DNA from: Sphingomonas sp. SUN039
Lineage (GTDB): Bacteria; Pseudomonadota; Alphaproteobacteria; Sphingomonadales; Sphingomonadaceae
Reading direction: 5' to 3'
Assembly: GCF_024758725.1 (NCBI RefSeq)
Contig: NZ_CP096972.1
Location: 1,284,001 to 1,348,000, forward strand
Length of the DNA: 64,000 nt
The notes beneath the pieces were generated by a model. It did not search any database. It was not told the DNA's origin and saw nothing but the letters and a program-made list of their open reading frames with translations. Below are positions 28,047-44,731 of the stretch, one piece after another. The number at the start of each line of letters is the position of its first letter. Position 1 is the stretch's first letter. The position numbers were made by a program, and so were the translations under genes.

Positions 28047-31000
28047 TCAATTGACGTGGTAGGAATTCTTGGTCCGTGACGGCGTATACCGCGCCGCCCA
28101 GTCCTCGAATTTGATCTGGTAACCGCCCTTGCCGCCGAGGCTGCGATCCTTGAGTCCGACCCGCACGTGCAGGCCTTCGACCTTGTATTTCCAAGTTACT
28201 TCGCCGTTCGGTCCGATCTTCGTCTCGTTCAACAGCCTAGCGAGCTCCGCTTGCTTGGCGAGCATCTCGGGACTCGTCTCGCGCTTCGCGATATCGTGCT
28301 TGCCCCCCGGCATCCGGTCTTCGAGAAAGGCGCGAGGGTCGGTCTTATAGGGCGGTCGCGCCTTGCTGACCTCGTTGCGCGTGGATTTGAACTCCCCGAC
28401 GATGATCGTATCCTCGAGGACAGCGAAATAATCCGGTCCATTGTTCGAGAGATTCTGCATGGGCGCTCCGATCAGATCGGTGCCATGCTGAATCGCAAGG
28501 TTCGCGAATTGCTCTTCCAGCCTACCATCGGTCGTCCCGTTCCGCCGCTTGGAGAATTGCAGCAAGAAATCGAGATTGGCATCGATCGAGGTTCCTTTCA
28601 GCGAGGCGATGCGATCTGCGATCTTCTCCTGCGCATACGTCGGCGGCCCCTCGCGAACGAGATGAGCGTCGGGCCGATCGGGCCCGGCCGGGGCAGCGAC
28701 GCGGTCGGGATCGCGCGGCCGGCGCGGGGGCCGTGCATTCGCCCCGTCCGCGGAGGGTTTCGGTTCGTCGTCGGCATTTTTTACCGATCCTTCGTCCCCT
28801 GACTGGATCGGAACCGAATGGCCCATCTGAAGTCCGTCGGCATTGTCACCGATCACGATGCCGATCGCGTCGCCCCGGTCCATCGACTCGAAGCGGTCCT
28901 TGTCGGGATGGACGTAGAGCGTGCTGCTCGCTTGGGCGTTGGCAGCACCTGAGGCTGCGCTGCCATTGCCTCCGGCGCTCGTATCGGACGCTGGGCGGGC
29001 GATAGTCGCGGTTGCATTCCGGGCGGAGGCCTGCTCCCCCTGCGCGCCGTCCGTCGCTGGGGCGACCTGTTCGGCGCTTTGAAATCGCGCCGCCTGGGCC
29101 CGTGTCGAACCTTCTTTTGCACGGCCCGCCAAGGCTGCCGCACCGCCGACCGCCGCAAGCCTGGCGAGATCGTCGGACACGGTTTCCGAATCGGCACGCG
29201 CGTCCGAGGCGATCGCTTCGGCGGCGTCTCGGGCGATGGTCTTGTTCGCATTGTTGAGCGCTTCTCGAATGGCATCGTCGGCACGTTGCTCATTCTGTAC
29301 ATCGATCTCGGCCTTTCGGGCGGCCGCCACGTCTTGCTGACGCGCGGTTTCGGCCTCGGCTGCGGCAGACTGCTGTTCAGTCTGGACAGCGGCAGCCTGC
29401 GCGCGTTTCGCTTCGCTGTTGATTTGCTCCTGCTGTCGTGCAGCCTGCTCGGTTTGGAGCTTTTGTAGCTCTTCCTGTTCTTTTTCCTTGGCGAGGCGCA
29501 GCTCTTCGAGCCGCTGCTTTTCCTGCTCCTTTTCGGCATCGTCGCGGTCGGTCTCGGCTTTCTCGTCCGCTTTCTTGACCTCGGCGGCGGTATCCTCTTC
29601 GAGCTTGGCGGCCTTGGTGTCGGCTTCGGCCTTGGCTTCCGCGACGGCCTGATCTGCCTTGTCGCGGGTTTCCTTGTCGACGCGGTCCTTTTCGGCCTGA
29701 TCGTCGAGGTCGGCCTGTTTCTCGGCTTCGGTCCGGATGTTTTCGGCGGCTTCGTTGAGCTGCTCCTGCTGCGCCTCGTCGATGGCATCGGTCTGTTTTT
29801 TCAGGTCTTCCTTCAACTCCTTGCGCGTTTCGTCGTCGATGTCCTCGAGCTTGTCGTCGAGCTCGGCAGTCTTCTCTTCGAGTTCTTCGGTGCGCGTCTG
29901 GGCGGCGGCGTCGCCTACAGCCTGGGTCTCTTCGGCAACCTCCTCCAGCTCGTCCTTGTCGGGCGTGCCATCGCCGTCGCTGTCGGTCTCTTCGGGATCG
30001 GCCTCGCCGTCCGGTTCGGCGTCCGGAGTCTTTTCGGTCGTCTGCTCGTTTTCGACCGTCGCTTCGGAATCGACTTCGGCGTCCTTTTCGGTCTCGGCGT
30101 CGGTATCAGTCGTCGCTTCAGGCTCGTTCGTCGTCTCGGGATCAACCTCGTTGTTGGGGTTGGCCTCGGTGTCGGCTTCAGAGTCCGTCGCCTCTTCAGG
30201 CTCGTTCGTCGTTTCGGGATCGACCTCGTTGTTGGGGTTGGCCTCGGTGTCAGCTTCAGAGTCCGTCGTCTCTTCAGGCTCGTTCGTCGTTTCGGGATCG
30301 ACCTCGAAGCCCGTCTTCGTCCCGGCTTCGTTCGCGGTTTCGGTTTCCGCGTCGGACTCGTGATCCTGAGTCGGTTCGGTTTCGGTTTCGGCTTCCGTTT
30401 CGGTCTCCACCCCTTCACCGGGCGGCACCGTCTTGACCGTATTGCCGTCCTCGCCCTCAGTCGTCGCGGCCGCGTTGTCGTCCAGGTTTTCCTCGGCCTC
30501 GGCGTCAGCTTTGCGAACCGTCTTCTCGGTCTCCTCGGTCCCGTCCGTTTCGGTGGGCGACACGACCGGCGTCGCTTCCGCGTGTTCGGTGCCTTCGGTC
30601 GCTTCCGGGTCTGACGGTGCGACAGGTTCCTCCGCCTCGCCCTCGGCTTGGACAGGCGCAGCCTTGGTTTCGAGCGCCTCCTCCAAAAGGTCGGGATCGG
30701 ACGGCGTCACAGATTCTTTGGTTTGTCCTTCGCTCTCGGTGGGCACGACTTCCGGTTCGGTGGTCTCCTCAGTGTCGGGCAAGACGGGTGCCGCTTCCTC
30801 GCCTTCGGCTGTCGAGCCGGTCGGCTCCTCCTCGTTGCCCGTCATCTCTTCGGACGCTGGGACGACCGGGGCCGTTTCTTCGGGCTCGGTGCCCGGCGGC
30901 GATGGCGCGGCCTCCGCATTGCTCTCGAGTTCAGATACGCCCGCTCCCTCCAGCTCCTCGGTGGACGGCACCTCGGTTTCGTTCGATCCTGCCGGTTCGG

Positions 31001-32303
31001 TTGTCGGCGCGGTCGGCGTTTGGACCTCAGCCTCGTTCGTCGATCCGGCGTCAGTCTCGGTCGTCTGCGTGTTGTCCGGCACGGGTGCGACCGGCTCGTC
31101 GATCTCGGTCGGGGTTTCGACCGTCGGTGCCGGGTCATCCGTCGATTGGGATACCGGCTCGGTCGCGACGGGCGGCGTTTCGCCGTCGTCGACCCCGGCA
31201 GAGGGCTCGGCGACAGTCGGCGTCAGCGCGGCGTCGGCATTGTCCTGTACAGGCGTCTCGACAAGGGGTTGGTCGGTCTCCGCACCAGTCTCGGGCGCGC
31301 GTTCGGGCGACGACGCAACCTCCCCGGTACTTTCGGGCGCGCTCGGCAAATCTTCGCCCGCATCCATGTTCAGGCCGGTCTCGGGCGTGGTTGGGGCCAC
31401 AGGCTCGCCGTCGCCTTCGGTCAGCGCGCCTTCGGGAGCGGAGGGCGTTTCGACCGGTTCGAGGTCCGGGCCGGTGACGGCTGTTTGGTCGATCGACGAC
31501 GTATCGCCGGTTTCACCGGCCTCCAAGCCGGACGGATTTTCGATCCCGCTGTCACCCGGAGCTTCGGTCCCCGCGACCGATCCCAGCTCGACGACATTGG
31601 GCTGCGACGCCGTTTCGAGACCGTCGCCACCGGACGAAAGCGCGGTCGCCGAAGCCGCATCGCTCGCGTTCGCTTGATCGGGTTCGGACAACGGATCGAC
31701 GGTATCGACAGGCCCGGTCGCTGCATCGGGCGAAACGTCTTGCGAACCTTCCATCCCGCCGTCGCTACCACCCCCGGTCAGCACCGAATTTTCCATCGCA
31801 GAATCGCGCTGCGCCTTCATCATCGCGTTGTAATCGGACGTGCCGTTGGCGAACCCCTCATAGCCCGGCAGCGCCTGGTTCTCGTCGATCGCTTCGATCG
31901 GACCCTTGCCGTAATCGCGAATCATGCCGCCATCGTCGTCTTCCGAACGCGGTTCGGGACGGGGCTGTTCCGGCTCGCGTTGCTCCGGCTCGGCGCGCCG
32001 GAGATCGTCGTCATGCGCCAGGTCGGCTTCGAATGAAGGCTGGGCGAGGTCGGTTTCCGGTCGTTGCGACAGCTCGGACATCGCGCTGCCGCTGTTCGTC
32101 GACAGATCGGCGCGCGGCGGTGGATCGGCAAAAACCGCTGGCGGCTCGCTGTTTTCGGGTTGCGGCCCCGTTTCGGGCAGGGGCGGCAGCATCGACGGCT
32201 CGGCGACGACGGGTGCCGCTGGCGCTTCCGCCGCCGGCATGACGGGTGCCGGCATCGGCGTGGCTTCGACGAACGTCGGTTCGGGCATGTCCTCGTTCGG
32301 CAT
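28047..32303 (-). CDS. Giant acidic coiled-coil protein with C-terminal PD-(D/E)xK-like nuclease domain
   Basis: A 1418-residue protein, no match recognised as a whole. Residues 1-765 are disordered, extremely rich in Glu, Asp, Thr, Pro and Ser, including a 26-residue tandem repeat (about 666-727). A thrombospondin-type-3/EF-hand-like motif, DSDGDGTPDKDELEE, sits at about 775. Residues about 790-1010 are a charged coiled coil (e.g. EKEQEKQRLEELRLAKEKEQ). An Ala/Gly/Pro-rich linker leads to a folded C-terminus (about 1230-1418) with GPDYFAVLEDTIIVGEFKS: a PD ... ExK array (Asp1291, Glu1304, Lys1306) as in restriction-type nucleases, plus an upstream helix with paired Glu. Its ATG is 6 nt after the ATPase stop. 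The nuclease call is from motif only. Confidence 0.72.
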   Translation of the reverse strand: MPNEDMPEPTFVEATPMPAPVMPAAEAPAAPVVAEPSMLPPLPETGPQPENSEPPAVFADPPPRADLSTNSGSAMSELSQRPETDLAQPSFEADLAHDDDLRRAEPEQREPEQPRPEPRSEDDDGGMIRDYGKGPIEAIDENQALPGYEGFANGTSDYNAMMKAQRDSAMENSVLTGGGSDGGMEGSQDVSPDAATGPVDTVDPLSEPDQANASDAASATALSSGGDGLETASQPNVVELGSVAGTEAPGDSGIENPSGLEAGETGDTSSIDQTAVTGPDLEPVETPSAPEGALTEGDGEPVAPTTPETGLNMDAGEDLPSAPESTGEVASSPERAPETGAETDQPLVETPVQDNADAALTPTVAEPSAGVDDGETPPVATEPVSQSTDDPAPTVETPTEIDEPVAPVPDNTQTTETDAGSTNEAEVQTPTAPTTEPAGSNETEVPSTEELEGAGVSELESNAEAAPSPPGTEPEETAPVVPASEEMTGNEEEPTGSTAEGEEAAPVLPDTEETTEPEVVPTESEGQTKESVTPSDPDLLEEALETKAAPVQAEGEAEEPVAPSDPEATEGTEHAEATPVVSPTETDGTEETEKTVRKADAEAEENLDDNAAATTEGEDGNTVKTVPPGEGVETETEAETETEPTQDHESDAETETANEAGTKTGFEVDPETTNEPEETTDSEADTEANPNNEVDPETTNEPEEATDSEADTEANPNNEVDPETTNEPEATTDTDAETEKDAEVDSEATVENEQTTEKTPDAEPDGEADPEETDSDGDGTPDKDELEEVAEETQAVGDAAAQTRTEELEEKTAELDDKLEDIDDETRKELKEDLKKQTDAIDEAQQEQLNEAAENIRTEAEKQADLDDQAEKDRVDKETRDKADQAVAEAKAEADTKAAKLEEDTAAEVKKADEKAETDRDDAEKEQEKQRLEELRLAKEKEQEELQKLQTEQAARQQEQINSEAKRAQAAAVQTEQQSAAAEAETARQQDVAAARKAEIDVQNEQRADDAIREALNNANKTIARDAAEAIASDARADSETVSDDLARLAAVGGAAALAGRAKEGSTRAQAARFQSAEQVAPATDGAQGEQASARNATATIARPASDTSAGGNGSAASGAANAQASSTLYVHPDKDRFESMDRGDAIGIVIGDNADGLQMGHSVPIQSGDEGSVKNADDEPKPSADGANARPPRRPRDPDRVAAPAGPDRPDAHLVREGPPTYAQEKIADRIASLKGTSIDANLDFLLQFSKRRNGTTDGRLEEQFANLAIQHGTDLIGAPMQNLSNNGPDYFAVLEDTIIVGEFKSTRNEVSKARPPYKTDPRAFLEDRMPGGKHDIAKRETSPEMLAKQAELARLLNETKIGPNGEVTWKYKVEGLHVRVGLKDRSLGGKGGYQIKFEDWAARYTPSRTKNSYHVN
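30121..30306 (-). repeat. 78-bp in-frame tandem repeat, about 2.4 copies
   Basis: Units 30121-30198 and 30199-30276 differ at only four bases (positions 15, 24, 54 and 70 of the unit), and a third partial copy runs to 30306. Each encodes 26 residues rich in Glu, Thr, Asp and Asn (EVDPETTNEPEE...ANPNN). The near identity suggests recent slippage or unequal crossing-over inside the giant gene. Confidence 0.9.
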
Positions 32304-32309
32304 CCCCGC

Positions 32310-35300
32310 CTACTCCGCCTTCATTGCTGCATAATCGACGGCACGTTGGTCCAGCTGCGCCTTTTTCTCGTCGCTGACCGGATCGTCCTCGATGCGGGCG
32401 ACCACCGCGACGACGAAGCGCCGCCACATCTCGGCGGTCAGCGCGTCGAACCCCGCACGCTCTGCGGTCATCACGCTGTCGGCGGCGTCGCCCGCTGCCT
32501 TGCGGTCGGGCGGCGTGCGCCACAGCCGGTCCTTGACGCTCCACCAGACGCTCTGGTTGGCGAAGCTGCGGTCTTCGAGCGTCGCAAGGTCGGTGGCGAG
32601 GGTGGCGGCGAGTCCTGCAAACGGTCCCGTCGGGTCGGCGGCTGCGTTCGACGTACCGCGCGGCGGGCCTGCGGCCTCGCCGCGCCGGTCGCGCGTTTCG
32701 GTTTCGAGCGGCCCCTTGTATCGTTCTTCGGCAAGGCGACCGACCAGACCCCATTTCAATTTTTCCCACAGGTCGCCGACCGCCGCATCGAACGCGGCGC
32801 TCTCGCCCTCGAGCGCCGGTCCCAGCGCGTCGATCGCGGCATCGACCCCTGCGCCCTCTCCGAGCGCAGTATTCATCGCATGCCAGACCCCGGACTTGAC
32901 GAAATTGGCGTTCAGCAGCTTTTCGAACGCCGCCTTTGCCTCGCCCGCCAGCCATTCGGCAGCAGGGAGATCGGCCGTGCCCGTCTTGCCGTCCGAAGCG
33001 CCGGGTTCGACATAGGGCACGTGCAGGGGCGGCTCCAGCTTGGCGCTCTTCGCATTGGCCTGCATCTTCGCGACGAGGTCCGCCTGCTGCTTCGCCGCCG
33101 CCGCTTCGTTCTCGGGTTCGGGCGGTTCGAGGCCGCTCTTGGCGTCCTCCGACCGCATCAGCACCGGCTGGCCCGCATCGCGATCGATCATGATCGCATC
33201 GCCGGTCTTCAGCCGCGTGCGCGCATAGCGTTGCTGCGCCTCGTTGAGGTTCAGCTCGCTCGCCAGCCGGTCGAACCCCTGGCGATCCGACAGGCGCGTC
33301 AGGATCTTGACATATGAATTGTCGAGGACGCCGCCTACCAGGCTCGACGGGCGCTGGTCCATGACGAGGATGCCCTGCCCGAACTTGCGAACCTCGGCGA
33401 GCATCGTGTTCAAATCCTCGGCGCTCTTACTCTCGACCCCGTTGCCCTCGCCAGCGCCGAGCAGGCGGTGCGCCTCCTCGATGAACATGATGTGGATGCG
33501 CTTGGTGTCCTTGCGGAACGCCTCCTCGATATGGCCGGCGAGCTGGGTCAGGAAGAAGGCCATGACCAGCGCGATGTTCGATCCGTCGCCGAGGCCACCC
33601 AGCTCGATCACTACTGGCCGCTTCAGCATCTGCTGGATGAACGCGCCGTTATTGCCCTTCACGTTGATGATGTGGCCGATCTTCTTGCCGATCGCATTGA
33701 CGCGGATCGTGCTCGCGCCGCGAATGACGCCGATCGATTCCTTCGATCCCTCGTACAGGCTCACCGCTTTCTCGTTGACCTCGTCGCGGATCGCGGCGGC
33801 GAAGGCCGCGAGCGTCGGCGCGGCGGTGTCGGGGCCGCCCTTCTGGTCCATCCGCATCGGCGTCTGGCCGTCGAGATAGCGCGGATCAGTGTAGATGCGT
33901 TCGAGTGCGCCCTCGTAGATCGCAGGCACGGGGTCGAACATCTGGAACGCGGCACGAAATGCGGCGAGGATGCGGGTGGTATGGTTGCGCACGGTGACGC
34001 CGGGCGGCACCGAAAAGGGATTGAACTGCAACGGGCATTCGTCGAGGTCGCCGACGGTATAAACGACCAGGTCGTTCTCGAGCTTCTCGTTGCCCATCAA
34101 CATGCGAAATTCCTGGCCTGTCGACGGATCGAGGACGAGGAACGGCACGTCGTGGTCGCGCCACAGCTGGAGGAGCAGCGAGAAGGCAAGATTGGTTTTG
34201 CCACTGCCCGGCGCGCCGACCAGCAGCGACGGTTTCAACAGGTCGCCGAGCGACACCATGAAAGGCAAGGCCCCGTCGCCCTTGTCTTCCCCGAGCAGGT
34301 TTTCGCGCTGGTAGAGGTAGCCGACCTTGATCAGGTCCTTCTTTTCAGCCCGGCGCCGCTTGCCATTTTCATCGACCTTCGGTTTCTGTTTAAATCGCCC
34401 GGCGTCGAGGCTGTCGGGCGGGATCACGAACGGCGCTTCGGCAGTACTGAGCGCCGAGGTCTGACCCGGCCGGTCGTAGATCGGCAGATGGAACAGGCTG
34501 ACCGCCTCGTCCGGGGTTACCACGCCCGACAGGTCGATCTTGTAGGCGCTGGCGGCGTTCGGTTCGCCCCGCGCCCAGCGCGACTGGGTCATCCAGCGCA
34601 GGCTCTCGACCGCGTCCTCCATCTCGTCGTGGCCGGGCCGCACAATGCGCGGACGGACCCAGCCGAGCGCGCCGTCGGGATCGTCGGGCGGCGGGTTGGC
34701 GAGCGCCGAGCGCACCGATCCGATCAGCGCTTCAGGGACGGCTTCGCGCGCGGCTAGCGTAACGCGCATGACGAACACCGAATCGGAATAGCTGGTCAGC
34801 CGTTCGTAGATGTGGCGACCGCGATGGATATACGACACCGCTGCCGCATCCGACGATGCGGTCGCCACCAGATCGGCACGCATCATCTCCTCGGTGACGA
34901 TGCCGTCCTTGTTGGGTTCCTTGTCGCCCTGACTCGCCTTGCGGGTCAGGTCTTCGGCGATGATCGAGAACCAGCGGCCCGCCAGCGCGACGAACTCGCG
35001 CCCCTGTCCTTCGGCAAGCTGGACTGGCTGCAATTCGATCCGGACTGCCGTGGGTACGGCCGTCTTGGCCAGCGTCTCGACGATCGACAGCCAAGGGTCG
35101 CGGCGATTGTCCGCCCAGTAACGGTGCGGCACGTAGTGCATCGATGGCTGGCTGAAGCTGGTGAGTGCTTGTTCCCATTTTCGGATTTCGACGACCTTGA
35201 TCGGTCGTTCGTCCTGGGCGACGGGGATAGGTTTGCCGTTCTTATCCTCTTCAGGGTCGAGCAGTTGGAAAAGGGCGAGTTGCAGCGCCCGCTTGTTCAT

Positions 35301-35717
35301 CCAGCGCGGGCTGCCGTACGAGAACATGCCCTCTTGCGGGAAGGTTTGCATCGCCTGTGCCGCGAAGTCCCGGGCTTCGCGCTTCGCCGTCTCCGGGTCC
35401 GAATGGGCGCTGCGCATCAGCATGTGGCAGCGCACCCGCGCGTTGAAGCGCGAAGCGTCGGGGTCGGACGAGAATTGCAGCGCGATCGATCGGTTGCGTC
35501 CGGCCTGGTGCAGTTCGGCAATATAGGCGCGGAAACGGTAGAGCACCGCCGCCGTCACCTCATTGCGCATCGTCCCGCTTTCCGGCGCGAGCGCAGGGAG
35601 CGATGGCACCTCGAACCCGCTGATCGCATAATGCAGCAGGCTCGATCCTTGCGGCACCGCACCGAAGAATGGCGTCAGATCGTCGGTGATCAGCGGTTCG
35701 GGCTGCATCGGGTCCAT
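32310..35717 (-). CDS. HerA/FtsK-like ATPase (DUF87 type)
   Basis: About 1135 residues from ATG 35717. An N-terminal region of about 450 residues, unrecognised, precedes the motor. The ATPase has Walker A LLVGAPGSGKTNLAF (about 499-512), Walker B RIHIMFIEEAHRLL (about 740-753) and the downstream VMDQRPSSL segment. This matches the HerA/VirB4/FtsK hexameric translocase superfamily with the HerA-type EEAHRLL. A C-terminal extension of about 280 residues is Ala/Glu rich. In bacteria and archaea HerA motors pair with nucleases (NurA, Sir2, DUF4297). Here the gene precedes the PD-(D/E)xK-like giant protein by 6 nt and follows the 442-residue gene by 23 nt. Confidence 0.82.
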   Translation of the reverse strand: MDPMQPEPLITDDLTPFFGAVPQGSSLLHYAISGFEVPSLPALAPESGTMRNEVTAAVLYRFRAYIAELHQAGRNRSIALQFSSDPDASRFNARVRCHMLMRSAHSDPETAKREARDFAAQAMQTFPQEGMFSYGSPRWMNKRALQLALFQLLDPEEDKNGKPIPVAQDERPIKVVEIRKWEQALTSFSQPSMHYVPHRYWADNRRDPWLSIVETLAKTAVPTAVRIELQPVQLAEGQGREFVALAGRWFSIIAEDLTRKASQGDKEPNKDGIVTEEMMRADLVATASSDAAAVSYIHRGRHIYERLTSYSDSVFVMRVTLAAREAVPEALIGSVRSALANPPPDDPDGALGWVRPRIVRPGHDEMEDAVESLRWMTQSRWARGEPNAASAYKIDLSGVVTPDEAVSLFHLPIYDRPGQTSALSTAEAPFVIPPDSLDAGRFKQKPKVDENGKRRRAEKKDLIKVGYLYQRENLLGEDKGDGALPFMVSLGDLLKPSLLVGAPGSGKTNLAFSLLLQLWRDHDVPFLVLDPSTGQEFRMLMGNEKLENDLVVYTVGDLDECPLQFNPFSVPPGVTVRNHTTRILAAFRAAFQMFDPVPAIYEGALERIYTDPRYLDGQTPMRMDQKGGPDTAAPTLAAFAAAIRDEVNEKAVSLYEGSKESIGVIRGASTIRVNAIGKKIGHIINVKGNNGAFIQQMLKRPVVIELGGLGDGSNIALVMAFFLTQLAGHIEEAFRKDTKRIHIMFIEEAHRLLGAGEGNGVESKSAEDLNTMLAEVRKFGQGILVMDQRPSSLVGGVLDNSYVKILTRLSDRQGFDRLASELNLNEAQQRYARTRLKTGDAIMIDRDAGQPVLMRSEDAKSGLEPPEPENEAAAAKQQADLVAKMQANAKSAKLEPPLHVPYVEPGASDGKTGTADLPAAEWLAGEAKAAFEKLLNANFVKSGVWHAMNTALGEGAGVDAAIDALGPALEGESAAFDAAVGDLWEKLKWGLVGRLAEERYKGPLETETRDRRGEAAGPPRGTSNAAADPTGPFAGLAATLATDLATLEDRSFANQSVWWSVKDRLWRTPPDRKAAGDAADSVMTAERAGFDALTAEMWRRFVVAVVARIEDDPVSDEKKAQLDQRAVDYAAMKAE

Positions 35718-35740
35718 CGTCGCGCGCTTCCCTCGTTTGC

Positions 35741-37069
35741 TCAGCAGCAATATGGTTTGTAGAGTTTCCACGGTGGCCCATTGGCCAGCGCGGCAGTCAG
35801 ATACTGGTTCGGCGCATCCATCCCCAGCATCATTGTCCACAACCCGGCCCCGAACAATTGCCCGGCGATCTGCTGTTGCTGGATGTTGGTGATGATCTGC
35901 ATCGCCGAGGTGATCTCGGCCATGGTCGGCCCGAATTGGCCCTGTTGCCTGAACTGCACCGCCAGCATTTCCTGCTGTTCGGCCTGGACGCGTGGGTCGC
36001 TGTTGATTGCCATAATATCGGGATCGGCAGCGAGAATCTTGTTGCCGTTCGGGCTTTGCCTTGCGGCGAGCAGGTCGGGGCGGCGCTTGATGAGTTCGGC
36101 CTGCGCGACTTCGGCATAGCCATGGATTTCGCGCAGCGCGCCGATGGTCATGAACACTTGGAGATCGGCGGGGTCGAGCCGGTTCGCGTCGACCGCAGTG
36201 ATCAGCTTGGGCACCGGATTGAACCCGGGCATCTGCAGCTGCATGGCAAATTGCTGGATGACCTCGGGACGGCGCGCGACGTTCTGCGCGTCACGCAGCG
36301 ACTTCATGACCTGCGGCACCTCTTGCGGCATCAGCCAGGCGAGCCAGGGCGGCAGCATGCCCTGCTGGATCAGATGGCCGATCTCCTGCTCATTCGTCTG
36401 GGCGGAGAAGCGTTGCCCGTCCTGGCTCTGCAGCCAGCTGCGTATCTTGCCCGGAATGCGCGAAAAGGCGTGCCGGTCGATCGATTTGAGTTCGCGCAGC
36501 CAGAAGGCGTATTTCTGCCACGGATACACCTTCATGCTCTTTTCCATGGCGTTCTCTACATAACCCAGGTCGAGCGTCACGGCGTCGATGTCGATGGTCT
36601 CGTCGATCGCCGGGCAGAAATAGCGGATATGGACACCCTGCGGCAGGGCGGGATCGACCAACCAGATCACGTTGACCGGCGCGGTGAAGCCCTCCGCCCC
36701 GACCAGCGGAACCTCGAGCCTGCGGCGGCCGAGATGGCCGATATGCGGCGGAAGCTCGGCCCCCGGCGGCGCCCCGAACTGCCAGCTCGTGTCGCAAAAT
36801 TTGCCAGCGCGCAGGCGCGAATAGATGCGCAGGTCGTAGGTGCCGTCGCGATGGGCGAAGCTTACTGCCTGCAGAGGTTGCAGCCCCGGCGGCGCGACAG
36901 CGCGGACGTTGACGAACGCACCCTTGAACATCACACGCAACCAGTCGGGCTTGAGTTCCCAGATCGGCGACCCCTGTCCACCGGTGCCGACCTGTTCCCA
37001 GCATTCCGGATCGATCTTGCGCAGCGTCGCCCATTTCTGCGCGGGGTCGATCGACGGCGCGTCGGCCAT
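35741..37069 (-). CDS. Unrecognised 442-residue protein of the HerA operon
   Basis: Starts MADAPSIDPAQKWATLRKID at ATG 37069, sharing one base with the stop of the DUF805 gene (TGATG). The N-terminal half is beta-rich with many Pro and aromatic residues (GAFVNVRAVAPPGLQPLQAV, PVNVIWLVDPALPQG). The C-terminal half is helical and Gln/Met-rich (MAEITSAMQIITNIQQQQIA). No signal peptide or clear membrane helix is seen, and no family comes to mind. Position between a membrane protein and the ATPase suggests a structural or adaptor role, which is inference only. Confidence 0.7.
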   Translation of the reverse strand: MADAPSIDPAQKWATLRKIDPECWEQVGTGGQGSPIWELKPDWLRVMFKGAFVNVRAVAPPGLQPLQAVSFAHRDGTYDLRIYSRLRAGKFCDTSWQFGAPPGAELPPHIGHLGRRRLEVPLVGAEGFTAPVNVIWLVDPALPQGVHIRYFCPAIDETIDIDAVTLDLGYVENAMEKSMKVYPWQKYAFWLRELKSIDRHAFSRIPGKIRSWLQSQDGQRFSAQTNEQEIGHLIQQGMLPPWLAWLMPQEVPQVMKSLRDAQNVARRPEVIQQFAMQLQMPGFNPVPKLITAVDANRLDPADLQVFMTIGALREIHGYAEVAQAELIKRRPDLLAARQSPNGNKILAADPDIMAINSDPRVQAEQQEMLAVQFRQQGQFGPTMAEITSAMQIITNIQQQQIAGQLFGAGLWTMMLGMDAPNQYLTAALANGPPWKLYKPYCC

Positions 37070-37839
37070 CAGAGCTCGTCGACCGGCACCGGGCCGTAGC
37101 GATTGGTGTCGCGGTTGCCGTCCTGCGCACAGAGGATCAGCCAGGGCACCGCGCCGACGAAGGTCAGCAGCAACAGGTTCCAGACCCCAGGCTGCCCCGT
37201 GTCGTGCAGCCGCCGCGTGCCCTCGGCCACGCCGCTCACCCCGACGACGCACAGCGCGAGAAACACCAGCAGCGCGAACGGCCCGGCGGTTTCGCCATAT
37301 TGCACGCCTTCGTCGGAGCCCATCAGCACGAGGCCGACGACGCCGACGCCGAAGCGCGCGGCGTACATCTTCCAGAAATCGCCGCGCGTCATGCGGCCCG
37401 AGAAATTGAAGTCGGTGAACAGCCGCTTGGCGATCAGCATCGCCGGGCTGGTAGTCGCCTGCAGCTTGTCTCGCTCGGGAGGAGGCGGAGGCGGCGGAGG
37501 CGGTGGCGTCGGATCGGGATCGACGTCAGGGACTTCGGGATGATCGACCGGAGGCGAGACGGGCTCGTCGGGATGGTCGGTGACATCGGGCTCGTTGATA
37601 TCCGGGCCGTCGGGCACGACCGGCGGATCGACCAATATCTCGACATCCTCGGGCGGAACGATCGGCTCAGGCTCTTCGGGTTCTGGCGGGTGTTCCGGTT
37701 CGGGCGCGGGCTCGGGTTCGACCGGCGGCGGCGGGGTCGGCGGCGGTGGCAGCGGCGATCCGCAAATTTCGCAGCGCGCCGCGATCGGCACTGTCATGTG
37801 ACAGGTCGGGCATTCCATTGTGCCGTCCGTCTCGCTCAT
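37069..37839 (-). CDS. Zinc-ribbon, proline-rich, DUF805 membrane protein
   Basis: A 256-residue protein from ATG 37839 with a GGAGG site upstream. Residues 8-28 form a zinc ribbon (MECPTCHMTVPIAARCEICG). Then come about 110 residues of Pro/Glu/Asp/Val-rich linker, including long Pro runs. The C-terminal part is a DUF805 domain: FNFSGRMTRGDFWKMYAARF, three membrane helices, TRRLHDTGQPGVW and a tail ending NRYGPVP. It is the first gene of the HerA operon and would anchor the system in the inner membrane with a cytoplasmic zinc finger on a stalk. Confidence 0.8.
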   Translation of the reverse strand: MSETDGTMECPTCHMTVPIAARCEICGSPLPPPPTPPPPVEPEPAPEPEHPPEPEEPEPIVPPEDVEILVDPPVVPDGPDINEPDVTDHPDEPVSPPVDHPEVPDVDPDPTPPPPPPPPPPERDKLQATTSPAMLIAKRLFTDFNFSGRMTRGDFWKMYAARFGVGVVGLVLMGSDEGVQYGETAGPFALLVFLALCVVGVSGVAEGTRRLHDTGQPGVWNLLLLTFVGAVPWLILCAQDGNRDTNRYGPVPVDEL

Positions 37840-38600: not shown

Positions 38601-39455
38601 GTGAAGCTATTGAGGTTCTCGTCGGCAGGCGGAAAGCCACAGCTGGGAATATACGCCGACGGAAGGATAATTGCGCTCGACGCCTCCTGTTCCGGCTTCG
38701 CCAATTTGACGACCCTCATTGCTGACTGGCCGCGCGTTCGGAGTGGGCTGGAATCGCTGTTGGCGTCGAATCCCGAGCGCATCCCGTTAGAGTCGGTCCA
38801 ACTTCATGCGCCGATCGCGCGGCCAGGTAAGATCTTCGCCATCGGGCTGAACTATGCCGACCACATCGCAGAATCGAACATGGAGCCGCCGAAGGACCAG
38901 GTATGGTTCACCAAGGCCGTGACCTCAGTGAATGGCCCCGGCGATCCAATCGAGATTCCGAGTGAACCTTCGTTCGTGGACTATGAGGTCGAGCTGGTCG
39001 CCGTGATCGGCAAGGGTGGCCGTGATATTGCTCGTGAGGATGCCGCTGCCGCCGTGTTCGGCTATTGCGTTGGCAACGATGTCACCGAGCGCATGTGGCA
39101 GCACCGCACGCAGCAATGGTCGTTGGGAAAGTCCTTCGATACACATGCGCCGTTCGGTCCATGGATCACAACTGCCGATGAAGTGCGCGATCCTCACGCC
39201 CTGAACATCCGCGCCTGGGTGGGTGACGAACTTCGGCAGAACTCAAACACGCGGCATCTGGTGTTCGATATATGGGACCAGATTGCGCATCTTTCGCATG
39301 CGATGACGCTTGAACCAGGCGACCTGATATTTACCGGCACGCCAGGTGGTATCGGTGCCGCAATGGATCCTCGCAAATTTTTGCAGCCGGGCGAGATCGT
39401 GCGATCCGAGATCGAGACGCTCGGAACACTAACGAACATTTGCCAATTACGTTGA
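38601..39455 (+). CDS. Fumarylacetoacetate hydrolase family protein
   Basis: A 284-residue cytoplasmic enzyme of the FAH superfamily, which cleaves or isomerises C-C bonds of ring-fission diketo acids. The typical core is present: FAIGLNYADHIAES, metal ligands in VDYEVELVAVIGK, GYCVGNDVTERMWQ, the catalytic Lys in LGKSFDTHAPFGPW and the closing FTGTPGGIG. A ribosome site (GGAAG) precedes ATG 38601. In this cluster it would process the product of the extradiol dioxygenase at 50255. The exact substrate is unknown; isomerase, hydratase and hydrolase members cannot be separated by eye. Confidence 0.85.
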   Translation: MKLLRFSSAGGKPQLGIYADGRIIALDASCSGFANLTTLIADWPRVRSGLESLLASNPERIPLESVQLHAPIARPGKIFAIGLNYADHIAESNMEPPKDQVWFTKAVTSVNGPGDPIEIPSEPSFVDYEVELVAVIGKGGRDIAREDAAAAVFGYCVGNDVTERMWQHRTQQWSLGKSFDTHAPFGPWITTADEVRDPHALNIRAWVGDELRQNSNTRHLVFDIWDQIAHLSHAMTLEPGDLIFTGTPGGIGAAMDPRKFLQPGEIVRSEIETLGTLTNICQLR

Positions 39456-39474
39456 CTGCGAGAGGCGGAAGTTC

Positions 39475-41001
39475 GTGACCGCACCGTTGTCGCTTTCTGG
39501 ATTCGAGGGGCAGGATCTCAGGACCCTGATCGACCGACAAGCCACCCGGCGCAAACATGCTCCGTTCCTCGTTTGGGAACCATTCGACGGGGACACCGCT
39601 CACTGGACCTATAGAGAGTTTTGCGATCTCGTCCGGACGGCGGCGGCGGGCCTGGTCGAACGTGGAATTCGGCCCGGCGATCGCGTCCTGATACATCTCG
39701 ATAATTGTCCCGAATTTCTGACGCTTTGGCTGGGCTGCGCCTATGCTGGAGCGGTTGCTGTTACGACAAACACGCGAAGCACGCCGGACGACATTGCTTA
39801 TTTCGCCGAACATTCGCACGCCGTGGCGGCCTTCACCGAACCCGGATTTTACGACGCAGTAGCTAAGGCGTTGCCACCGGATGCCTGGACCGAGGTTGTA
39901 ATTCCGGGCGGCGGGCTTGCCATTTCCGGTGATCCCGCATCGCTGCCCGAGCGCCCTCACGACCCACTGGCTCCATTTGGTATCCAGTACACTTCGGGAA
40001 CCACGGCGCGTCCCAAAGCTGTGCTCTGGTCGCACGCCAACGCGCTGTGGGGCGCGCGCGTGTCGGCAATGCATGAGGCGCTGTTACCGGACGACGTTCA
40101 CCTCGTCTTTCTGCCGCTCTTCCATACCAATGCACAGGTCTACTCCGTACTTGCGTCGTTATGGGCTGGCGCAAGCGTTGTCCTTCAACCGCGTTTTTCA
40201 GTGTCACGGTTCTGGGACGTAGCGGTTCGCAACGCCTGCACCTGGACATCGGTCGTGCCGTTCTGCACGATGGCATTGCTGGATCGGCCAATCCCGGAGA
40301 AGCATAGCTTCAAATTTTTCGGCGCGGCCGTACTGCTTCCTGCGGTCGAAGAGCGATTTGGCGTCAAGACCGTGACGTGGTGGGGAATGACCGAGACCGT
40401 GACACACGGAATCGTCGGATCTCCGACGTATCCGCCCAGTCCAATGGGAATGGGCTTCGCCTCGCCCTGCTACGAAATTCTGGTGCTCGACGAGACAATG
40501 CAGCCAGTCGCCCCGGGGGAAGCAGGCAACCTTTACGTTCGCGGACGCCGCGGCTTGTCGTTGTTTGTCGAATATGTCGACGATCCCGAGGCCACGCTTG
40601 CCGCGTTCACGTCCGATGGGCTCTTCATCACAGGCGACCGCGTGAGGTTAGGCACCGACGGCACGATGTTCTTCGTCGAGCGCGCCAAGGACATGCTCAA
40701 GGTTGGCGGAGAGAATGTCGCCGCGTCGGAAATCGAACGCGTGATCGCTGGCGTGCCAGGCGTCCGCGAAGTCGCGGTCGCTGGCAAGCCTCATCCCATG
40801 CTCGACGAAGTGCCGATAGCGTTTGTGATCGCTTCTGAGTTCTCAGAGAACCTCGTGGGAAGGATCAGTGCTGCTTGCGCGCTTTCGCTCGCAAGCTTCA
40901 AGCGTCCCGTAGATATCCGCCTGGTGGACGACTTTCCGCGATCGACGCTCAACAAGGTTTCAAAAGCCTTGCTGCGAGAAAAGCTCCGCCGAGAAGGGTA
41001 G
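39475..41001 (+). CDS. AMP-binding acyl/aryl-CoA ligase
   Basis: A 508-residue adenylate-forming enzyme, GTG start at 39475 with a GGAAG site. Motifs in order: IQYTSGTTARPKAVLWSHAN (A3), WWGMTETVTHG (A5), ITGDRVRL (A7), AKDMLKVGGENVAASEIE (A8) and the A10 lysine near LNKVSKALL. It activates a carboxylic acid to a CoA thioester. The sequence resembles CaiC/cyclohexanecarboxylate-type ligases rather than long-chain ligases. It follows the FAH gene by 19 nt, probably as an operon. A phenylpropanoid side chain is a possible substrate, which is inference from the cluster. Confidence 0.85.
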   Translation: MTAPLSLSGFEGQDLRTLIDRQATRRKHAPFLVWEPFDGDTAHWTYREFCDLVRTAAAGLVERGIRPGDRVLIHLDNCPEFLTLWLGCAYAGAVAVTTNTRSTPDDIAYFAEHSHAVAAFTEPGFYDAVAKALPPDAWTEVVIPGGGLAISGDPASLPERPHDPLAPFGIQYTSGTTARPKAVLWSHANALWGARVSAMHEALLPDDVHLVFLPLFHTNAQVYSVLASLWAGASVVLQPRFSVSRFWDVAVRNACTWTSVVPFCTMALLDRPIPEKHSFKFFGAAVLLPAVEERFGVKTVTWWGMTETVTHGIVGSPTYPPSPMGMGFASPCYEILVLDETMQPVAPGEAGNLYVRGRRGLSLFVEYVDDPEATLAAFTSDGLFITGDRVRLGTDGTMFFVERAKDMLKVGGENVAASEIERVIAGVPGVREVAVAGKPHPMLDEVPIAFVIASEFSENLVGRISAACALSLASFKRPVDIRLVDDFPRSTLNKVSKALLREKLRREG

Positions 41002-41029
41002 ACAACCTGGCACGTTAAGTGCGGGTCGA

Positions 41030-41734
41030 TTACTTCCCGATAATCTTCTGCTCGAGCGCCGCTCTGACGATGAGATCGGTTGTTTGGCGAATATGGCCGA
41101 CAGCGGCTTCGATAAGACCATCGGCGTCTCGCGCGAGTGCGAGCTTTACGATCCGTTGATGTTCGCCCGGCACGTTGCGACGCGGTCCGACATATGAGGA
41201 AAGAATGCGATACCGCTCGGACTGCTCGTACAACTGGTTGTGGAGGGCGATCAGGCGGGGACTCTCGCAGCCGCTCACCAGTGATGCATGAAAGGCAGCA
41301 TGGATTTTCAGCCAATCAGCGGCGCCCGTCTCTTGAGGCGTCGCGGGCGACGGCGTGACGGTCAAACGATGGGCCGCCGCAACAAGATTTGCCTCCCATG
41401 CGACATCACCCCTCTCGACTGACCGCCGCAATGCGATCGTCTCGATCTCGCATCTTACATCGGTCAAATCTTCGAGATCGTTGATCGAAAGCGGCGCTAC
41501 GACAAACCCGCGTTGGTCTCGCGAAACGACAAGTTGCTCTGGCACGAGCCTGGAGAGCGCTTCACGAACAGCGCCCGGGCTGACCTTCAGCTCTGATGCC
41601 AGTTCCTGTATCTTCAGCTTCTGGCCCGGCGAGTGGCGCCCGGCGATGATGTCTCCGCGCACGGTCGTGTAGACCCAGCTAGCCTGACTTTTCGGCTGGT
41701 CGTCGATCCGATCGATCTGGTGTACGTCGATCAA
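41030..41734 (-). CDS. GntR-family (FCD) transcriptional regulator
   Basis: A 234-residue protein, TTG start at 41734 with an AGAGGG site. The winged-helix DNA-binding region comes first (RGDIIAGRHSPGQKLKIQEL, VSPGAVREALSRL), then the FCD ligand domain with metal-binding residues in IHAAFHASLVSGC. It is likely the local regulator of the 38-53 kb catabolic genes, responding to a carboxylate or aromatic intermediate. Its start overlaps a 13-nt inverted repeat that could serve autoregulation. Confidence 0.83.
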   Translation of the reverse strand: MIDVHQIDRIDDQPKSQASWVYTTVRGDIIAGRHSPGQKLKIQELASELKVSPGAVREALSRLVPEQLVVSRDQRGFVVAPLSINDLEDLTDVRCEIETIALRRSVERGDVAWEANLVAAAHRLTVTPSPATPQETGAADWLKIHAAFHASLVSGCESPRLIALHNQLYEQSERYRILSSYVGPRRNVPGEHQRIVKLALARDADGLIEAAVGHIRQTTDLIVRAALEQKIIGK

Positions 41735-41741
41735 GTTGATC
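41729..41741. promoter_or_regulatory. Inverted repeat at the GntR start
   Basis: GATCAA-G-TTGATC is a perfect 6-bp inverted repeat overlapping the TTG start codon of the GntR gene. A regulator bound here would block translation initiation or early transcription. Confidence 0.3.
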
Positions 41742-41771
41742 CCTCTTTTCTTGATTGGTCTGCCATATGAG

Positions 41772-43109
41772 TCATGAGGAGGCTAGACCAGAGGTGCCAA
41801 GCCCGGGCCCCTTCCGGAACGTTAGGGTCAGCACCAGTCCGGCCATCAGCGAGCTTGCAGCGAATATGACCGACACTGTTCCGCGTTCTGCACCCGTCGC
41901 GAAGAGCCACCCAGCGAGCAAGGGCGCAACGGCACTCGCGACGCGACCCCAGCCCATGACGAAGCCAACGCCGGTTGCACGAACCGATGAATCGAAAGAC
42001 TGCGCGAGCGTGAAGTAGAAACCGGAAACGCCTGCATAGAGGAACAAGCCAAGCACCGCTGCCGCGCCGAGCAGTGCTCCCCAATTTGCCGGAACCATGC
42101 CGAAGACCAGAAGCGCACTAGCAAGCCCGACGGTGCAACCGACCGTCAACATGAGTGCGGAATAACGAGCCGCCAGCCAACCAAGCGCTATGCCGCCGAT
42201 AACGCCGACGACGCTGGCCGTCGCAGATGCTATGCTGCCATCAGATGGATTGAAACCCGCGTCAGCGACCATTTGCGGGAGCCAGCTTAGGACGTAATAC
42301 GCAGCGGCGGCATAAAGAACATTGGCGACCGCGAGCGCTACAGTCGTTGTGAGGCGGTCCGCCGTAAACAATGCCCTATACCCGATCGTCGATCGCAGCG
42401 CGCGTGGCGGCAATGCGATGCAGCGCGGCTTTTTGCAGCGATCCAGCACCGAATTGAGGCGATCGAGAGCGTTCGACGGCTGTCGTTGAGCGAGAAACAT
42501 TGGCGATTCCGGCAGGATCAGCAATGCGACCGGAATGAGAAGGACGGCGACGACGAAGCCGACGATGAAAATTGACTCCCAGCCCATCGAGCGGAGGAGT
42601 ACGGCAGACAACACGCCGCCCAGAACACCGCCAATGGGGTAGCCCATTGCCATCAAGGCGATCGCGAGTGACCGACGTCTCGCATTGGAAAACTCGGCTG
42701 CGAGCGGATTGATAACCGTTACGCACGTGCCGATGCCGAGGCCTGTAACGACGCGCCAAAAGGCTAACCACGGGACGGAAGTGGCTAGCGCGGCCATCAA
42801 CATGCCCACAGCCATCAAGGCGAGACTGATCAAGACAAGCAATCGCCGCCCCGTCTTGTCAGCGAGCGGTCCGAGCAAGAACGATCCCGCAGCCATGCCG
42901 AACAGGCCCGCAGACAGCACCACCCCGAGCGCATCCAGTCCCAAATCCCACTGCTTCAAGATTGCGGGAGCGGCAAAGGTTACCGACAGCACATCATAGC
43001 CATCGAGCGCTGAGAGCACTGCGGTAAGCACGACAACACGAATCTGCGTCGGCGACATCGGCGACGCATCGAACACCCGTTGGAGAGAAGTTGCCTCGGG
43101 CATCGTCAC
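41772..43109 (-). CDS. MFS transporter, aromatic acid:H+ symporter (AAHS) type
   Basis: A 445-residue protein with 12 membrane helices. GYDVLSVTFAAPAIL in TM1 carries the Asp expected of AAHS symporters, and GPLADKTGRR is the loop 2-3 motif. It starts GTG at 43109 and overlaps the monooxygenase stop by 4 nt, so the two are coupled. It likely imports an aromatic acid or related hydroxylated compound for this cluster. GntR is 37 nt downstream. Confidence 0.83.
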   Translation of the reverse strand: MTMPEATSLQRVFDASPMSPTQIRVVVLTAVLSALDGYDVLSVTFAAPAILKQWDLGLDALGVVLSAGLFGMAAGSFLLGPLADKTGRRLLVLISLALMAVGMLMAALATSVPWLAFWRVVTGLGIGTCVTVINPLAAEFSNARRRSLAIALMAMGYPIGGVLGGVLSAVLLRSMGWESIFIVGFVVAVLLIPVALLILPESPMFLAQRQPSNALDRLNSVLDRCKKPRCIALPPRALRSTIGYRALFTADRLTTTVALAVANVLYAAAAYYVLSWLPQMVADAGFNPSDGSIASATASVVGVIGGIALGWLAARYSALMLTVGCTVGLASALLVFGMVPANWGALLGAAAVLGLFLYAGVSGFYFTLAQSFDSSVRATGVGFVMGWGRVASAVAPLLAGWLFATGAERGTVSVIFAASSLMAGLVLTLTFRKGPGLGTSGLASS

Positions 43110-44731
43110 AGGACCGCGTCAAGCTCCCGTCCGAGCACACGGTCGAAGACGTTGATCCAGACATCACCGCGCCATGCGACGGTCTGGTCCGGCCTGATCA
43201 GCGCCATCTTGGACTGATAGAGGGCCGTGACCGGAACACCCTTGGGTTGGACGACTTCCAGCGGCACGCCCGCGTTTTGGGCATCAGTAACGGCGGTGGC
43301 GATTTCTACCTTGGGCACATCCTCGGAGGCAAGCAGCGTGAGTCCCGAACCGAAGAGATCGTAGAGCGAGCGCCCGTCGTCAAGCCAGGCGTGCGGCGCG
43401 AGGCACCCTGGATAGGCGCTCGGCACGTAGTTGGAATTATCATGCGCGGGCGCCGGTCCGGCTTCACGCACGATCACGGGCGAATATTCGTAGCAAAGGC
43501 CGAGTACGGTCCCAAGCGTATGGAATTCGCGGCCTTTCGATGCCTGAATTCCGGCACCGACTTTCTGACGGATCGAGGCGCCGGTGTCGCTATTGTCCTC
43601 GATAGCGGCAAACATGTTCGGTTGGAGCGCGATCTGATAATTGGCCAGCGCCTCGTCGATCACCGTTCGGTGCACCGGTCGCCGCTCTGCTTCATAACTG
43701 GCCAGCAGAGTCTCGCCGCCCCATCCTTCGATGTTAGCGGCGAGCTTCCAGCCAAGGTCTACCGCGTCGCCGACGCCCATGTTCATGCCATAGCCGCCGA
43801 ACGGGGGATGGAGGTGACAGGCGTCGCCCGCCAGGAAAATCCGGCGATCACGGTAACGATCAGCCATCAGCTCGCTCCCCGCCCAATAATCCTTGCTGAG
43901 GATCTTATAAGGCAGGTCGATGCCCGTGTGGTCGCGGATCAATGCCGCTGCCTGGTCGTCGCTGAGTTGCACCCCCTCTTCAACCGAGCCGAGCGCGAAG
44001 AACCACACGTCGTCGACATCCATCGGCCCGATCGCACTGAATCCGCGAGGTCCAAGCTGCCAGTAAACCACAGCTGGCGGCTGCCGATGCGCATCGGCCA
44101 TTCCCGGCGCACGAAAGATGATGTTATAGTGTCGTGAAAGAGCGTATCGCCCGACCATCTTTGCGCCGATGGCGTCACGGACGACGCTGCGACTCCCGTC
44201 CGCACCCACGAGATACTCGGCGCGCAGCGCGTAAGGAGTTCCTGCTTCGTCCTCGATTGTGACGATGACATCGTCAGCCCCTTGTTCGGCACCTTTGAAG
44301 GTTTGACCCATGCACAACTCGACACTCGGCAGGGTCTGCGCATGCTCTCTCAGTATGCGTTCCAGCGTATATTGCGGGATCCACTGGGCGTGCTCGGGAT
44401 ATGCGGTGTTGCGCGTCGGCGCAGCGTTGAAAGCGTCCTCGAAAGTGGCCAGCGGATACCCAACAAGGCTGGTCACGAAGCGCATGTCGTTGGGGAAGTC
44501 GATGCCGAAGGGAGAGGCTTGAGCAAGCCGATCGGCAAGCCCCCAGCGACGAAGTAGCGATCGCGTGCGCACATTCGTCGTCTTTGCGCGTGGCGCAGCC
44601 CCGCCACGCACCTCTCGTTCGATAACGACAACAGGAATGCCCCTGCTGCCCAACTCGATAGCAAGCGACAGACCGACAGGCCCGGCGCCCACGATGAGGA
44701 CCTTTAACTCAGCTTTAGTTTCGTGCGGCAA
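43106..44731 (-). CDS. FAD-dependent aromatic monooxygenase (MhpA-like)
   Basis: A 541-residue flavoprotein, TTG start at 44731 with a strong AAGGAGAGG site. GxGxxG in VLIVGAGPVGLSLAIELGS binds ADP of FAD, GADGSRSVVRDA is the DG motif, and FLAGDACHLHPPFGGYGMN is the GD motif. A C-terminal thioredoxin-like domain gives the usual length of the MhpA/PheA group. It ortho-hydroxylates phenolic rings with NAD(P)H. With the extradiol dioxygenase and the FAH gene it would form a meta-cleavage path. Confidence 0.85.
   Translation of the reverse strand: MPHETKAELKVLIVGAGPVGLSLAIELGSRGIPVVVIEREVRGGAAPRAKTTNVRTRSLLRRWGLADRLAQASPFGIDFPNDMRFVTSLVGYPLATFEDAFNAAPTRNTAYPEHAQWIPQYTLERILREHAQTLPSVELCMGQTFKGAEQGADDVIVTIEDEAGTPYALRAEYLVGADGSRSVVRDAIGAKMVGRYALSRHYNIIFRAPGMADAHRQPPAVVYWQLGPRGFSAIGPMDVDDVWFFALGSVEEGVQLSDDQAAALIRDHTGIDLPYKILSKDYWAGSELMADRYRDRRIFLAGDACHLHPPFGGYGMNMGVGDAVDLGWKLAANIEGWGGETLLASYEAERRPVHRTVIDEALANYQIALQPNMFAAIEDNSDTGASIRQKVGAGIQASKGREFHTLGTVLGLCYEYSPVIVREAGPAPAHDNSNYVPSAYPGCLAPHAWLDDGRSLYDLFGSGLTLLASEDVPKVEIATAVTDAQNAGVPLEVVQPKGVPVTALYQSKMALIRPDQTVAWRGDVWINVFDRVLGRELDAVL

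Follow-up and report, generated by a model that had tools for sequence, protein, structure and literature searches.

We analysed a 64,000-nucleotide stretch of Sphingomonas sp. SUN039 (contig NZ_CP096972.1, positions 1,284,001 to 1,348,000; hereafter the window), whose minus strand carries an operon of four genes, named here A to D, in which the gene of a HerA-family ATPase precedes that of a giant protein with a nuclease-like C-terminus. The operon is laid out as follows, in window coordinates.

28047-37839, minus strand: operon A-B-C-D, four genes in the 5' to 3' order A, B, C, D
37069-37839, minus strand: gene A, 256 amino acids, with an N-terminal CxxC..CxxC zinc ribbon, a Pro/acidic linker and a C-terminal DUF805 membrane domain
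35741-37069, minus strand: gene B, 442 amino acids, an orphan
32310-35717, minus strand: gene C, 1135 amino acids, a HerA/DUF87-family ATPase carrying long extensions at both termini
28047-32303, minus strand: gene D, 1418 amino acids, the proposed modular effector

The coordinates of the open reading frames (ORFs) agree with the arrangement reported in a preliminary description of the locus: A and B overlap by 1 nucleotide, while gaps of 23 and 6 nucleotides separate B from C and C from D, respectively. This array is not a product of chance, since an orthologous operon exists in Sphingomonas gei. The scan of a genome collection with an eight-sequence ATPase alignment returned at least 593 pattern matches and at least 501 relatives, of which the best 80 were kept, and the closest locus by identity among these 80 was that of S. 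gei (L034), where the gene order is the same and A, B and C are respectively 41% (E 5e-36), 63% and 68% identical to those of the window. Two ORFs in different frames lie behind its gene C. The first, of 695 amino acids, is acidic and of low complexity; the second, of 510 amino acids, begins with a charged Ala-rich region, contains a 24-residue motif sharing 17 identities with D 1129-1152 and ends in a D-related C-terminus. This break of the D-like frame is either a draft error or genuine, and the two ORFs were handled separately. Directly compared, the C-termini of D from the two genomes share 27% identity (E 3e-7). The four-part set A-B-C-D is real, with one further genome found, and the C-terminus of D is its most diverged structured part. 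The co-occurrence of the four genes elsewhere, on which the preliminary description had made its proposal depend, is thus observed in full order, in S. gei only.

Gene C had been described as a HerA/FtsK-like motor on the basis of two motifs, both of which are present.

34191-34217, minus strand: Walker A motif GAPGSGKTN (C residues 501-509)
33468-33491, minus strand: Walker B motif IMFIEEAH (C residues 743-750)

The family matches of C were weak and mutually consistent, with NF033849 (E 5.6e-12), CedD (E 3.8e-9) and HerA_antiphage (E 1.5e-6) in NCBIfam, and mad8 (E 4.3e-12) and HerA (E 3.6e-9) among the PADLOC models; against Pfam DUF87, C alone reached E 0.0076 and 16.8 bits, under the 23.2-bit cut-off. 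Of the ten distinct PDB sequences matched at E <= 0.01 by a profile built from 14 members of the C family, eight are HerA- or DUF87-type chains (E 1.3e-16 to 1.6e-6); DotL (E 1.9e-5) and YjgR come next. Furthermore, DUF87 was matched at E <= 1e-3 in 37 of the 41 family members scanned, and TrwB_AAD_bind in 9 of them. HerA proteins carry an N-terminal HAS-barrel, for which C gave no Pfam match at E <= 1. The Walker motifs and the profile match to the HerA core indicate, at the sequence level, that C belongs to the HerA (DUF87) ATPase family, in line with the earlier assignment. The ATPase tree joins the C proteins of the window and S. gei with that of L062, a grouping that carries a long-branch warning; as the canonical HerA outgroup was down to one sufficiently long row, no position of this branch inside HerA is claimed.

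Two features were delineated in the product of gene A.

37762-37812, minus strand: zinc-ribbon cysteines CPTC...CEIC of A (residues 10-26), all four also found in S. gei
37090-37410, minus strand: DUF805 domain of A (residues 144-250; Pfam PF05656)

The earlier reading of A as a zinc-ribbon and DUF805 protein holds, with a significant match to PF05656 (E 3.5e-18) and a weak match of the ribbon (Zn_ribbon_6, E 0.08), whose four cysteines are all retained in the S. gei orthologue. Likewise, B, presented as unrecognised, matched no family in Pfam, NCBIfam or PADLOC. Its sole relative found was the S. gei protein (63-64% identity); it was absent outside its own genome among the 347 family genomes searched, and did not match a profile of seven upstream proteins from Streptomyces/Micromonosporaceae. 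Because the AlphaFold2 model of B was unusable (predicted local distance difference test, pLDDT, of 36), no fold-based function is proposed for it.

Five successive or nested features were delineated in gene D.

29904-32303, minus strand: acidic low-complexity arm of D (residues 1-800), defined by residue composition
30088-30306, no strand assigned: 78-nucleotide tandem repeat of 2.8 copies within the arm
29304-29903, minus strand: charged Ala-rich stretch of D (residues 801-1000) devoid of Pro and Gly, coiled-coil-like from composition alone
28848-28919, minus strand: motif LYVHPDKDRFESMDRGDAIGIVIG (D residues 1129-1152), 24 residues of which S. gei shares 17
28050-28643, minus strand: fast-evolving PD-(D/E)xK-like C-terminal domain (D residues 1221-1418; D1291, E1304, K1306), defined by motif and model

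No match to D was found in Pfam, NCBIfam or PADLOC, and no trafficking or secretion domain was recognised in it. The arm contains few basic and hydrophobic residues (D+E 19-41% and K+R 0-9% per 100 residues), and about 1200 residues, largely of low complexity, lie between the N-terminus of D and its nuclease-like domain. In the latter, the motif D-x12-E-x-K (D1291, E1304, K1306) is kept in S. gei, in a comparison of two sequences only, with SNNGPD...VGEFK in D versus SNNGAD...VVEAK in S. gei. The AlphaFold2 model of this C-terminus, produced from an alignment of these two sequences only, follows the order helix, beta hairpin, helices, strands, with a mean pLDDT of 53.7 and ten-residue means of 64-81 over model residues 81-170 (ExK) and of 49 over residues 71-80 (Asp). 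Among the best 50 of the 407 Foldseek matches to the PDB, ranks 1-20 were HincII and ranks 21-23 EcoRV, both restriction endonucleases of the PD-(D/E)xK superfamily, while PAS/LOV domains mixed with SfiI, Hjc and Vsr followed from rank 24 onward; the best E was 2.3e-3, with TM-scores of 0.21-0.32. Motif and low-confidence model together support, without proving, a PD-(D/E)xK nuclease domain at the C-terminus of D. Of the PD...ExK ending claimed earlier, the motif stands through its conservation in S. gei, whereas the fold remains weakly backed, and the different fold named as a counter-argument is not what ranks at the top of the structural matches. This domain matched only its own genome among 385 genomes of the class, and nothing in plasmids.

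HerA ATPases are currently read as DNA translocases coupled to nucleases. One reading of the operon is a complex of HerA motor and nuclease, anchored in the membrane, where C would pump DNA into the nuclease of D, in the manner of HerA-NurA or HerA-DUF4297, for defence or DNA processing. The HerA affiliation of C and the PD-(D/E)xK-like ending of D fit this view, and, in the available parts of the sources, HerA-DUF4297 is known as an ATPase-nuclease defence complex (PMC11291478) and HerA-like ATPases are mentioned with either a sirtuin or an endoDNase (PMC9503650). The operon shares with HerA-DUF4297 and HerA-Sir2 a HerA-family ATPase standing beside an effector, HerA/DUF87 structures being the top PDB matches of the C-family profile, and with HerA-NurA the motor family and the idea of a nuclease partner. 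However, no match to NurA, nor to DUF4297 or Sir2 (E <= 1), was found in A, B or D; the operon adds a membrane/zinc-ribbon protein, the orphan B and a giant modular effector; D differs in architecture from HerA-NurA; and a long, largely low-complexity region parts the N-terminus of D from its nuclease. The relatives of C, described below, bear further on this question.

The ATPase family was surveyed through 90 loci, labelled with L-numbers and drawn from six plasmid records, four further genomes and the best 80 of the at least 501 relatives. A custom simple gene caller recovered the ATPase gene in 89 of the 90 loci, with possible miscalls in the GC-rich loci L039, L041 and L063. By their genome labels, these loci originate from at least 15 phyla, and a same-strand gene lies within 400 nucleotides behind the ATPase in 74 of the 89, at the position occupied by D in the window (hereafter the slot). 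This slot is occupied by highly diverse proteins: 75 slot rows, including the window and with S. gei represented by its second ORF, were distributed over 38 clusters (last 200 residues, E < 1e-4). Among the 25 listed of the 50 Pfam families matched by 76 slot rows were LHH (3), WHH (2, the same two proteins as the two Colicin-DNase matches), Endonuclea_NS_2 (1), Peptidase_Mx (3) and Peptidase_M90 (2); NCBIfam was uninformative on the slot set. The firmly identified slot effectors are, as judged from these domain matches, all nucleases, which agrees with DNA feeding. In addition, 10 of 74 slot proteins contain HExxH, a motif present in 11 of 574 control genes from these loci (Fisher p 2.6e-5, some loci being related and the rows thus not independent), and these proteins are putatively peptidase-like. 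Long low-complexity proteins are also encoded behind the ATPase in Priestia and Embleya. Separately, Pfam returned no match for L035, L042, L048, L053 and L113 among ten chosen effectors, and a NADase identity envisaged by eye for the L035 and L042 proteins was dropped for lack of such a match.

Some slot effectors are followed by immunity or immunity-like genes. Of 46 second-downstream genes, 30 were scanned, giving matches to SUKH models (3), DUF7832 (3), DUF6985 (2) and YezG-like (1). An LHH effector precedes SUKH in L025, L090 and L100, a WHH effector precedes DUF6985 in L027 and L111, and an Endonuclea_NS_2 non-specific nuclease precedes YezG-like in L099, whereas the DUF7832-like genes (at the cut-off in L095 and below it in L103 and L109) stand behind one shared effector family of unassigned type. 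YezG-like is labelled an immunity family by Pfam itself, SUKH is another, and DUF6985 is immunity-like by its position alone. SUKH is often named in the available part of PMC3482391, fitting an immunity role. In one clade, moreover, the C-terminus of the effector has been replaced. Compared with the Streptomyces locus L042, loci L036, L037 and L040 carry 89% identical ATPases and 71-78% identical upstream membrane genes, with unmatched effector C-termini, while N-terminal similarity of the effectors was found for L036 and L037 (E 9e-7 and 3e-8) and not for L040, in low-complexity regions with the filter off. Conversely, the L042 effector ends in a C-terminus 76-77% identical to that of L035, the ATPases of these two loci sharing only 77% identity. 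Upstream genes were similar in 35 of the 41 locus pairs whose ATPases are at least 60% identical and in which both neighbours were called; by sequence comparison, only the Streptomyces group shows clear C-terminal replacement.

A zinc-ribbon gene with a predicted transmembrane segment is found directly upstream of the ATPase in 19 of 68 loci versus 7 of 574 control genes, and any transmembrane protein in 47 of 68 versus 181 of 574. Gene A fits this recurrent zinc-ribbon and transmembrane theme, DUF805 itself seeming a local choice, and the window differs in that B sits between A and C.

These immunity pairs and membrane partners raise the possibility that C, with A, exports D to neighbouring cells, the operon being then an undescribed toxin-delivery machine with a logic like that of the FtsK-like motor of type VII secretion. 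Toxin-family nucleases with immunity partners, membrane partners upstream of the motor, the DotL chain among the PDB matches and the TrwB_AAD_bind matches in relatives are all consistent with export, as is C-terminal replacement in one clade, a hallmark of inter-bacterial polymorphic toxins according to the available part of PMC3482391. The same part of that source includes among polymorphic toxin systems a type VII form with a YueA-like FtsK/HerA motor; the likeness extends to the FtsK/HerA ATPase and, in some relatives, to exchanged C-termini and to toxin nucleases with SUKH or YezG immunity proteins. In the Streptomyces-clade relatives, the C-terminus is exchanged, with an N-terminal match in two of three pairs when the low-complexity filter is off, whereas the window locus offers two orthologues only, with a C-terminus that diverged yet remained homologous. 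The operon further lacks an outer-membrane component, its partner genes are others than those of polymorphic toxins, D matches no family and holds no recognised trafficking domain, and no immunity gene was recognised at the window locus. We regard export as somewhat unlikely for this operon.

The explanation that we tentatively favour, short of calling it probable, is that the operon represents one form of a widespread system built around a HerA ATPase and armed with interchangeable effectors, and that the nuclease of D is released inside the cell. The many unrelated slot proteins, several of which are toxin nucleases with immunity genes, make the holding, activation or movement of a protein effector a simpler role for the motor than the pushing of DNA, and the lack of any recognised outer-membrane part, trafficking domain or immunity gene makes us prefer release inside the cell for the window operon. 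A would provide a membrane platform with its zinc ribbon, B an adaptor or regulator, and C a ring-forming HerA-type motor, while D would be a modular effector made of a long acidic arm, a charged rod, a short conserved motif and a terminal PD-(D/E)xK nuclease. Arm and motif may keep D idle at the membrane-bound motor until some trigger induces its ATP-driven remodelling or threading by C; the nuclease thereby freed would cut intracellular DNA, halting the cell or its invader. By contrast, the 38 slot clusters, the immunity partners and the HExxH enrichment fit poorly with a dedicated DNA feeder, and we consider DNA pumping into D unlikely. Consequently, of the membrane-anchored HerA-nuclease system initially put forward, the HerA motor, the membrane partner and the nuclease-like C-terminus are retained, whereas DNA feeding is not favoured given the diverse slot of the relatives and the six loci that combine a toxin nuclease with an immunity or immunity-like gene.

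Several observations weigh against intracellular release from an exchangeable slot. The immunity pairs of the relatives are equally compatible with export. At the locus itself, the window and S. gei C-termini of D are diverged homologues with no replacement, B resembles nothing besides its S. gei counterpart, the ORF behind D has a weak coding bias and no Pfam match, with no immunity gene recognised, and the one long same-strand ORF behind the D-like gene of S. gei has no Pfam match either. Across the family, most slot proteins have no identified activity; 13 of 75 belong to one membrane-protein-like family and 8 to another family of unassigned role, and the slot protein of L033 is metallo-beta-lactamase-like. 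The HExxH proteins of L043, L074 and L085 have no peptidase match, that of L045 matches below the cut-offs, and the exchanged Streptomyces C-termini of L035, L038 and L042 match no Pfam toxin. Finally, effector C-termini are similar in 32 of the 41 close pairs, many near relatives thus retaining their effector.

Comparison with other described systems did not provide a name for the operon. HerA/FtsK capture systems, found in mobile conflict loci, likewise pair nucleases with a HerA/FtsK motor, and, in the available part of PMC10853773, these loci carry Orc/CDC6 ATPases, winged helix-turn-helix (wHTH) proteins or D5 helicases, none of which was matched in A, B or D. The MADS defence system resembles the operon through the mad8 match of C, whereas A, B and D match no PADLOC model in a scan that covered A-D. 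The serine-rich protein family NF033849 is the best NCBIfam match of C, and the L031 ATPase carries a Ser/Thr-rich stretch; C nevertheless scores 43.9 bits against a cut-off of 650. In the literature, covered partially and by titles and abstract starts, no account of the A-B-C-D gene set was found, and an earlier description is possible. Within these sources, the nearest known systems are HerA-DUF4297, HerA-sirtuin/endoDNase, HerA/FtsK capture and polymorphic toxins with a type VII FtsK/HerA motor, none of which carries the A-B-C-D set, in agreement with the preliminary description, which knew of no named system with these genes.

On a broader scale, it is possible, if rather speculative, that a branch of HerA motors, a group otherwise known as DNA pumps, has become the dedicated engine of an unrecognised, phylum-spanning system of effector deployment or toxin delivery. 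Such a system would associate a membrane platform, often with a zinc ribbon and transmembrane segments, elsewhere with dynamins or Hsp70-like proteins, to one exchangeable and partly immunity-paired toxin slot, the window representing its nuclease-armed alphaproteobacterial form. If true, this would reveal a new machine for toxin delivery or release, or else show HerA working in immunity by a new logic; many entries annotated only as 'ATP-binding protein' or 'DUF87 domain-containing protein' would gain candidate functions, with the window operon as a compact four-gene test case.

The genomic setting of the operon also raises the question of whether it is a selfish module, such as a mobile addiction module, that persists through the toxicity of D, with C, A and B serving for restraint and not for deployment. 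The G+C content at third codon positions reaches 0.82, 0.82 and 0.83 in A, B and C and 0.74 in D, versus 0.67-0.74 in five flanking genes, so that A-C stand out and D, within the flanking range, does not. Close relatives are missing from nearly all genomes searched. C was matched in 23 of 59 relatives' genomes, its own included (E <= 0.001), the matches besides the window showing 22-33% identity over at most ~190 residues and being ordinary HerA-like proteins as judged from sequence; one other match was found among 385 class genomes (26%, E <= 1e-12) and three among 398 phylum genomes (29-31%, E <= 1e-10). Some relatives are plasmid-borne, with 42 plasmid records matched by C, and two phage records matched at 25-28% identity; a viral-contig scan with C returned no relative. 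On the other side, the operon is chromosomal, no mobility gene was present among the ten neighbouring ORFs scanned, no antitoxin was identified, and a large motor with membrane parts seems costly for addiction alone. We therefore hold a selfish module to be very unlikely.

Nine of these ten neighbouring ORFs encode a response regulator, a histidine kinase, a DUF347 protein, a TonB receptor, a metallophosphatase, an FAA hydrolase, an AMP ligase, an MFS protein and an FAD hydroxylase, the tenth having no match, and no defence island is visible among them. The operon seems to adjoin an aromatic catabolic cluster, suggested at window 38601-44731 by the genes of an FAA hydrolase, an AMP-binding ligase, an MFS transporter and an FAD aromatic hydroxylase. 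Nucleotide similarity to one same-genus genome (L116) stops at window 27561, just ahead of the operon, where other genes follow; HipA/HipB-looking genes, recognised by eye, occupy L116 9463-12210 behind the corresponding breakpoint. This place may be a variable site, and the operon may have been acquired. No clean empty site was found for it, blastn between its flanks gave no junction repeat (no match >11 nucleotides), and arm-type integrase (PF13356) had no match in the genome.

Other arrays of the motor family display diverse partner genes. Operon-like arrays of two dynamin-family genes, the ATPase and an HNH-type effector are completed by SUKH in E. coli plasmid pTW10590_133 (L025 3302-11701) and by DUF6985 in a Lactococcus plasmid (L027 2798-11581). 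Hsp70-like proteins were recognised by eye upstream of the ATPase in L103 and L111, and a protein kinase is the second gene upstream in L036. In a Photobacterium plasmid (L024 1172-11234), a coiled-coil protein with an AAA-like part, seen by eye, and a DUF2357 gene precede the ATPase, with Csm6 annotated nearby. Behind the ATPase of L031 (598-10660) come a membrane-like protein, a coiled-coil-like one and two WD40 proteins, the first with an Hsp70-like part and the second with a DUF805-like start (both seen by eye); the latter is possibly another DUF805-type partner near the motor family. In metagenome-assembled genomes of Obscuribacterales and cyanobacteria (L057, L069, L071, L072 and L081), low-complexity zinc-ribbon membrane proteins of 1293-1430 amino acids precede the ATPase, and one conserved small downstream family replaces the diverse effectors. 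Finally, radical-SAM activase look-alikes were noticed by eye in L043, as the second gene upstream of the ATPase, and in L050 (8296-9045), sharing their array with a transmembrane or zinc-ribbon protein, the ATPase and an HExxH protein.

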